Shown piece after piece: positions 44,148 through 45,729 of a stretch of DNA of 58,820 bases. The stretch is taken from the NCBI GenBank assembly GCA_029261575.1, contig JAJDBD010000003.1:1-58820 (forward strand). The letters are read 5' to 3'. Below the pieces are notes generated by a model. That model did not search any database. It saw only the letters and a program-made list of their open reading frames with translations, and was not told where the DNA came from. The position numbers and the translations under genes were made by a program. Numbering within the stretch: position 1 is the stretch's first letter; every line of letters starts with the position of its first letter. The stretch is from Nitrospinaceae bacterium (GTDB lineage: Bacteria > Nitrospinota > Nitrospinia > Nitrospinales > JACRGP01).

Positions 44148-44927
44148 TCAACCGGCTCCGGGCTGGAGCGGCGCCGTCTCTTTTGTCGCGACCCGTTGAT
44201 TCTTTTCGGCGAGTCCTCCGGATTTTGCGATTTCCAGAATTCGGGCGGCAAGACGGTTCCTGGTCTGGCGGCTTTTGAAGGGATAAAACTGTTCCTTGAG
44301 CGCGATAATAATCGCTTCCGGATAATGGGGCGGAAGGGCGCCTCGGAGTCCTATCCGTATCTTTTCGGCGCTGATCTTATCGACCCTGGAAATCTGATTT
44401 GATTGCAAAGTTTGATTTAACCAGGCGCCTTCCAGGACGATGGCCTGGTCGTCTAACTTTAGAAACCCGGCGTCCATGTACAGAGGCGCCGGACTGGAAC
44501 CGGCGTTTTTCCTCCATCCCTGGAAAACCACGAAACTGGATGATTCCCCGTCTGGAGCAGAGTTGCGGAGGGCCGGTCGGAGTTTATAAATATAATGGCG
44601 GAAAATTGCGTGGGTGAAATCGAACCAGCGGGCGGAAATCAACAGGCAAAAAATGAAATTGAAAATCAACAAATACCGGAAGGAAAATATCGTCAGGTGG
44701 ACCAGCGCGGCAATGCTCAAACTTAGAAAAAAACTGAGAACGAGGTTGATGGAACGGAAGAGGAGCGCCAATGCTAAAACCTTTTTGCCGTCTTTGGGTT
44801 GCGCGCCCAGGCGTTGAACTTTACGGTACAAAAGCCAGGCGGTTCCCAGGCCCAGAGTGACGGACAACAGGGGAATCGGGAAGATGAAAATCAGCAGGAT
44901 GTAGGCGATAAATAGAAGTTCCAGCAT
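44148..44927 (-). CDS. Membrane protein of unknown function
   Basis: Product of 259 residues. Four predicted membrane helices fill the first half (about 3-30, 48-75, 80-100), with the basic loop YRKVQRLGAQPKDGKK between them. The second half is soluble and mixed (FVVFQGWRKNAGSSPAP, FLKLDDQAIVLEGAWLNQ, ALPPHYPEAIIIALKE). No family is recognised. It reads away from the structured element at 44984 and toward the small-gene cluster, 42 bp upstream of the palindrome. A role in the envelope is inference. Confidence 0.65.
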   Translation of the reverse strand: MLELLFIAYILLIFIFPIPLLSVTLGLGTAWLLYRKVQRLGAQPKDGKKVLALALLFRSINLVLSFFLSLSIAALVHLTIFSFRYLLIFNFIFCLLISARWFDFTHAIFRHYIYKLRPALRNSAPDGESSSFVVFQGWRKNAGSSPAPLYMDAGFLKLDDQAIVLEGAWLNQTLQSNQISRVDKISAEKIRIGLRGALPPHYPEAIIIALKEQFYPFKSRQTRNRLAARILEIAKSGGLAEKNQRVATKETAPLQPGAG

Positions 44928-44983
44928 GCAATGGATTTTATATGAAACGGCAATAAACGGTGTATAATTTTATGAATAAGCGA

Positions 44984-45085
44984 ATAAGGGAGCCTCTAAA
45001 AATTAATCATGGCCGTGAGCGGCCCTTATTTATAAGGGCAAGCGAGTTGCCGAAAGCGAAAATACGCAATGATTAGAGATTTCCA
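44984..45085. repeat. Structured multi-hairpin element (MITE/REP-like)
   Basis: Three perfect stem-loops follow one another: GGCCG-TGAG-CGGCC (45011-45024), CCCTTAT-TT-ATAAGGG (45023-45038) and GGCAA-GCGAG-TTGCC (45037-45051). The outer ends also pair: CTCTA (44994-44998) with TAGAG (45074-45078) and ATCAT (45006-45010) with ATGAT (45069-45073). The unit so ends in imperfect inverted repeats and could fold as a branched RNA or be a miniature mobile element. It lies between a minus-strand and a plus-strand gene. Confidence 0.65.
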
Positions 45086-45120
45086 TTAAAACTCCGGTTT
45101 TCCCAGTCAACTTTTGTTCA

Positions 45121-45729
45121 ATGAGCAAATTGAACCGTCAATTTATAGTTATGCAAAGCTTTCATTGGAAATGGGGTCTTGTTGGAGCGATTTTGTTGGT
45201 CGGTCTGGGGTGTTCCCACGCCATTTCCCCGGCCGTTCGCCAGGGGGTGGACGCCGACGTTACATTTGGCCGGGTCTTGCAATCGCCGGGGGACCATGCG
45301 GGCAAGAGGATTATTTGGGGCGGAGAAATTGTGGCGACTCAAAATCAATCCGATCAGGTGGAAATCGAGGTGATCCAGAAAACTCTGGACAGCGCGGGGG
45401 AGCCCCTGCAGGTGGACGATTCCGGAGGGCGGTTCATTTTTATCCAACCTGGATACCTGGAGCCGGAAATATATTCAAAAGGCAGGCGCGTGACCGGAGC
45501 GGGGAAAATTGTCGGCAGTCGCATGGGCCAGGTGGGCGAGCGGGAATACCTGTATCCGCTGGTGGAACTTGAAGAACTGCATTTGTGGTCGGAAGCTCCA
45601 GAGTACGACTACAATCCCTATTATCCCTCGTTTTATTACGGACCCTGGTGGTATCCTTACCCGTATTCTTACGGCTTGGGTTACGGTCGTGATTATTTTC
45701 GCCACCGCCATTACGGCCATCGCCATTAA
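45121..45729 (+). CDS. slp: Slp family outer-membrane lipoprotein, copy 1
   Basis: Product of 202 residues. A lipoprotein signal ending LLVGLGC (Cys31) precedes the Slp core (GVDADVTFGRVLQSPGDHAGKRIIWGGEIV, then GRFIFIQPGYLEPEIYSKGR and VGEREYLYPLVELEELHLW). The last 50 residues are very rich in Tyr, Pro and His (PSFYYGPWWYPYPYSYGLGYG, HRHYGHRH), which is unusual and might bind metal. A start at 45151 is also possible. Slp proteins are envelope lipoproteins linked to starvation and acid stress. It is followed by a second Slp gene. Confidence 0.85.
   Translation: MSKLNRQFIVMQSFHWKWGLVGAILLVGLGCSHAISPAVRQGVDADVTFGRVLQSPGDHAGKRIIWGGEIVATQNQSDQVEIEVIQKTLDSAGEPLQVDDSGGRFIFIQPGYLEPEIYSKGRRVTGAGKIVGSRMGQVGEREYLYPLVELEELHLWSEAPEYDYNPYYPSFYYGPWWYPYPYSYGLGYGRDYFRHRHYGHRH

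Follow-up and report, generated by a model that had tools for sequence, protein, structure and literature searches.

The Slp locus and its upstream region

The window analyzed in this study is a whole stretch of 58,820 nucleotides from a Nitrospinaceae bacterium, a relative of marine nitrite oxidizers. At positions 45121-45729 (+ strand) it carries a gene for an Slp-family outer membrane lipoprotein, identified by its Pfam match (PF03843, E 9e-43) and by synteny. An earlier note had described three enclosed hairpins lying just ahead of Slp genes, and the neighboring genes indeed belong to this family. The divergent gene on the other side (44148-44927, − strand) had no Pfam match; it is adjacent to the Slp gene in four relatives, in which the pair is syntenic. 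A J-domain-like gene was observed between the two in genomes G001 and G003 (loci L265 and L266, compared with 44928-45120 of the window), and was missing at the Slp locus in the window genome, G002 and G004.

Between the two genes we found a copy of a repeated element of 97 bp (44988-45084), delimited by BLAST and profile searches and ending 36 nt upstream of the annotated Slp start; it is placed on the + strand according to its core, not a gene. The range of 44984-45085 given for the hairpins by the earlier note was nearly right, as the element proper is flanked by the tetramers ATAA (44984-44987), directly outside the left terminal repeat, and ATTA (45085-45088), outside the right one, which are the left and right target-site duplications with one mismatch between them. 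The left terminal inverted repeat, GGGAGCCTCTAAAAATT (44988-45004, + strand; family form GGGCGCCTCTAAAAATT), was defined by alignment of copies and by the same end on an IS5-family element of the window genome, and the right one, AATGATTAGAGATTTCC (45068-45084, + strand; family form AATTATTAGAGGTCCCC), by copy alignment. A conserved hairpin core, GGCCGTGAGCGGCCCTTATTTATAAGGGCAAGCGAGTTGCC, occupies positions 45011-45051 (+ strand; covariance model match of 60.9 bits, together with pair counts). It contains the two halves of a tandem G-A motif: tGAg, with the GA at 45017-45018 (+ strand; G in 49 and A in 47 of the 49 aligned copies), and cGAg, with the GA at 45044-45045 (+ strand; G in 45 and A in 49).

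Copy number, layout and distribution of the repeat family

A BLAST search with positions 44930-45170 hit 49 places in the window genome, a total that includes fragments and cases where one copy was also matched in inverted form; the best other copy shared 85% identity across 112 nt (E 3e-29). The copy number in this genome is about 35-40, and the covariance model of the core gave 34 matches. Among the 77 Nitrospinota genomes searched with this model, 25 contained the core, all of them belonging to the Nitrospinales (the order of the window), and no match was obtained in other orders or in the 13 genomes that represented the remaining families of the class. BLAST and profile matches revealed the element in relatives from four family-level groups of Nitrospinales. 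Thus, the further copies whose absence from related genomes the earlier note had named, along with the lack of a transcript, as refuting its reading are present both in the window genome and in its relatives. The exact core pattern was found in genome contigs only in Nitrospinota/Nitrospinia/Nitrospina records, and was not found in the viral contigs, plasmids or phages searched.

On the basis of the aligned copies, the family unit is 97-98 bp long and consists of a GGGCGCCTCTAAAAATT end, a variable spacer, the 42-nt core, an A-rich variable spacer and a AATTATTAGAGGTCCCC end. The terminal inverted repeats are about 17 bp long, and 81.6% of the end-to-end cells were paired in 49 copies. With such a length, well under the 500 bp that bound a MITE, with tens of copies and with no space for a transposase gene, the family has the build of a MITE. 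Other miniature elements with the same terminal repeats and unrelated interiors were identified in G020 (L206-L213, about 183 and about 230 bp) and in G004 (L214, 130 bp). No report of Nitrospina MITEs was found in the literature searched, and, as far as could be found, the element is a previously unnamed MITE restricted to the Nitrospinales.

Two further observations concern repeats of the window genome. First, composite copies were seen in which a module of about 100 bp with GCCGGGCAAGCGCCCGG and GGGTCCAGCGGCACGCTGG splits the MITE at the hairpin tip, after CCTTAT (L064:672-870 on contig C153, L137 on C119 and L126 on C179). Second, another repeat family, the palindrome GGGTCCAGCG(T/G)CACGCTGG, matched 128 times when up to 2 mismatches were allowed, versus 0 for a reversed control. 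Its members are often paired about 97-100 bp apart (for example, C198:4732 and 4831, or C57:3702 and 3799), and none lies within the window.

Evidence of mobility

Target duplications, proposed as a check in the earlier note, were found both at the window copy (ATAA/ATTA) and across the family. The left and right tetramers were identical in 43 of 84 copies, compared with a mean of 18.0 and a largest value of 27 in 1000 shuffles. A point against the MITE reading is that exact duplications are limited to about half the family. In 34 of the 84, the left tetramer was TTAA. Filled and empty sites were observed reciprocally in two sister genomes: G001 (contig C6) carries the element at a place that is empty in the window genome (C153), and about 300 bp away the window genome is filled and G001 is empty. 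At the window locus itself, the element was absent from all four relatives that keep the divergent gene pair, and G001 reads ATAAAA at the unfilled place matching the window insertion. Comparison of 13 fetched G001 loci with 35 loci of the window genome revealed no shared insertion. A recent burst was apparent in G044, where seven copies with 96-99% identity occupy unrelated places, mostly at TTAA.

The element is intergenic, none of 65 copies being located inside an ORF, and shows no bias of strand with respect to the genes around it (20 (+,+) versus 18 (−,−) co-directional pairs). Several copies (for example, L010, L038 and L144) start directly past the stop codon, TAA, that ends the upstream gene, and this codon then also belongs to the target duplication.

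A probable parent insertion sequence

An intact IS5-family element of 1.3 kb was identified in the window genome (contig C159, 417-1712), with ends GGGCGTCTCTAAAAATA and GGTGACCTCTAAAAATA and flanks ATAA/ATAA. Its transposase of 346 aa scored 288 bits with NF033581 (transpos_IS5_4), whose cut-off is 140, and also matched DDE_Tnp_1. The target type is alike, the MITE being flanked by TTAA/ATAA-like tetramers. We also considered transposases of the IS5_1 type (NF033578) as parents, and their full-length matches lacked the matching ends that the IS5_4 type has. Beyond the terminal repeats, no core-like sequence could be read by eye in the ends of the C159 element, so the interior of the MITE does not appear to be derived from this insertion sequence. 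Many MITEs have only their ends in common with the parent.

What speaks against this parentage is that only one full insertion sequence of the IS5_4 type was read in the window genome, and that a search with the IS5_4 model at a threshold of E 1e-20 gave no match in most MITE-bearing relatives. Such scarcity may reflect collapsed repeats and draft assemblies, or the action of another transposase. In G003, the same terminal repeat followed by MSQPGFFDLDNRY occurred about 107 bp from many contig ends (L199-L205), as would be expected of a collapsed multi-copy insertion sequence. Assembly gaps of this genome correspond largely to copies of an IS5-family element, with many contigs breaking about 107 bp inside it. 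Taken together, the shared ends and target suggest that the C159 element is the probable mobilizer of the MITE.

The conserved hairpin core

All arms named in the earlier note are present in the sequence: the enclosing CTCTA (44994-44998)/TAGAG (45074-45078) and ATCAT (45006-45010)/ATGAT (45069-45073), and the central GGCCG (45011-45015)/CGGCC (45020-45024), CCCTTAT (45023-45029)/ATAAGGG (45032-45038) and GGCAA (45037-45041)/TTGCC (45047-45051). However, the three central stems share bases, so that they cannot all form at full length and are alternatives at their edges. Folding of this stretch as RNA gave a z of about −2.9, with 2 of 200 dinucleotide shuffles equally good.

Pair counts in 49 diverged copies showed that the outer pairing and the stem CCCTTAT/ATAAGGG were kept. 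GGCCG/CGGCC and GGCAA/TTGCC had no covariation (score 0.085; shuffles, 0.087), and 42 of the 49 copies had a broken fourth pair in GGCAA/TTGCC. The proposed structured RNA with a branched three-hairpin fold is therefore particular to the window copy and is not conserved. What these copies support is one long hairpin enclosed by the paired ends, in which 86.3% of the cells were paired. Its covariation was 0.197, whereas shuffles scored 0.150 and sliding the pairing gave no more than 0.114. The consensus, folded independently, gave the same single hairpin (z −3.95). The core takes the form of an imperfect hairpin of 42 nt, GGCnnnGA-GC…GC-GAnnnGCC, whose stem covaries and in which a tandem G·A motif is nearly invariant. 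Least variable among its unpaired bases are the two facing GA steps, a context that favors tandem sheared G-A pairs.

Key positions of the core deviated in 0-6% of the copies, equal to the best-kept bases of the terminal repeats, and the spacers were free; the core is constrained about as strongly as the ends. Given that the best-kept terminal-repeat positions are equally conserved, low divergence of the core could not be taken as selection by the host on single copies. Core-seeded searches could account for part of the conservation. Copies chosen by the left end alone also kept the core, except for repeat-interrupted copies and a few lone ends. The idea that the core exists as an RNA of its own, away from the terminal repeats, was rejected, as all 30 fetched core loci matched the element profile, mostly at full length. 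The core is kept by selection, and our best guess at the reason is the element's own spread, with the core serving either as a DNA feature or as a protein site. As insertions are unshared between the sister genomes at the loci compared, we infer that the constraint acts on spread rather than on the use of each copy by the host. More tentatively, and with some doubt, the core could be a selected DNA or RNA hairpin module whose tandem sheared G-A motif is recognized by a protein, such as the IS5 transposase or a host factor.

Origin of the window copy and alternative explanations

The many copies in the window genome and its relatives, the target duplications, the empty sites and the probable parent insertion sequence bear out one of the two readings offered in the earlier note, that of a miniature mobile element. 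We consider it highly probable that the window stretch is a non-autonomous transposable element, an IS5-type MITE. The inverted repeats of about 17 bp would be recognized by a DDE transposase of the IS5 family, the product of a gene at another place in the genome, which would excise or copy the 97-bp unit. Insertion takes place at tetramers rich in A and T, with TTAA preferred, and duplicates 4 bp. The core persists while single insertions turn over between sister genomes, and such persistence in spite of turnover suggests that it is likely needed for spread. The window copy, lying between a conserved TATAAT and the Slp gene, is probably transcribed within the 5′ leader of Slp, as a by-product of its landing site.

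This copy (44988-45084) might also have been co-opted, being a MITE by origin whose hairpin now regulates Slp through transcript stability, termination or ribosome access. A TATAAT sequence that might serve as a −10 box is present about 20 nt upstream of the element (44963-44968, + strand), and GTGTATAATTTTA is kept here in G001, G002 and G004. A consensus promoter scan did not call this TATAAT and found no −35 match. If it is used, Slp transcripts would carry the window copy in their 5′ leader, which is probable to judge from the conservation of TATAAT. The position between this conserved hexamer and the Slp start codon, and the call, inside the copy, of a terminator-like stem with a T-rich tail, would suit such a role, and regulatory roles have been reported for other bacterial MITEs (PMC2229807, PMC10969869). 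However, no sign of selection on the window insertion was observed, and its absence from the locus in the four relatives also argues against co-option, which we regard as rather unlikely.

The family could instead be a structured RNA, either a small RNA or a cis-regulatory leader, that happens to be repeated and of which the hairpin core is the working part. The covarying core, the near-invariant unpaired G-A positions and the location of the window copy in a probable 5′ leader are what would be expected of such an RNA. Against this, strand is unbiased relative to the flanking genes, the core never occurred outside the terminal repeats in the 30 loci, none of the 13 G001 loci shared an insertion with the 35 loci compared in the window genome, and Rfam gave no family at the gathering score, its best weak matches (E 2 and 5) being at chance level. 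An RNA of this kind is therefore improbable. A palindrome of the REP/BIME type, mobilized via single-stranded DNA by a RAYT (Y1) transposase, is even less probable. The imperfect hairpin core with conserved mismatches, the intergenic location and the tens of copies are reminiscent of such palindromes, but the long IS5-like terminal inverted repeats and the 4-bp target duplication of the element are not defining features of REPs. Finally, although short stems of such size arise randomly, a chance origin in the AT-rich intergenic island has practically no probability left and is already refuted by copies homologous to E 3e-29 in the same genome and present in relatives of four families, as well as by the covariation.

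Comparison with known systems and significance

The IS5-type MITE described here resembles BrickBuilt and MITE464 of Porphyromonas gingivalis, also MITEs of the IS5 type, in being non-coding and intergenic, in its predicted stem-loops and in having terminal repeats common to IS5-family elements of the same genome (PMC4596501). The sequences are unrelated; the P. gingivalis terminal repeats read GAGACC... and the interior of BrickBuilt is a minisatellite (PMC4596501), whereas the interior of the Nitrospinales element is short and has one covarying hairpin, which four family-level groups have kept. Among the repeats covered by PMC2229807, Correia/NEMIS elements of Neisseria share with it a length of about 100-150 bp, inverted repeats and many intergenic copies; hairpin-forming transcripts and a functional motif inside may be further common features. 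They differ in ends and interior, in their TA target and in the reported processing by RNase III. CIR of Caulobacter/Brucella are likewise intergenic repeats with a predicted RNA structure conserved phylogenetically (PMC2229807), but have two arms and a GANTC motif instead of one long hairpin, a tandem G-A motif and IS5-like ends. Similar to our assignment, RUP of pneumococcus was assigned as a MITE to its insertion sequence via shared terminal repeats and target site (PMC2229807); it belongs to IS630-Spn1 with a TA target, in contrast with the IS5 family and the TTAA-like target found here.

For the Nitrospinales, which are important in marine nitrite oxidation, a mobile repeat is now defined and a probable parent insertion sequence assigned to it. 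This MITE explains a set of their intergenic hairpins, which one might otherwise take for RNA genes. In other respects it is ordinary bacterial genome biology. If the reading of the core as a recognized module is true, the MITE spreads or is tolerated through its interior and not through its ends alone. The conserved hairpin interior offers a clean test case for the contribution of MITE interiors to mobility.
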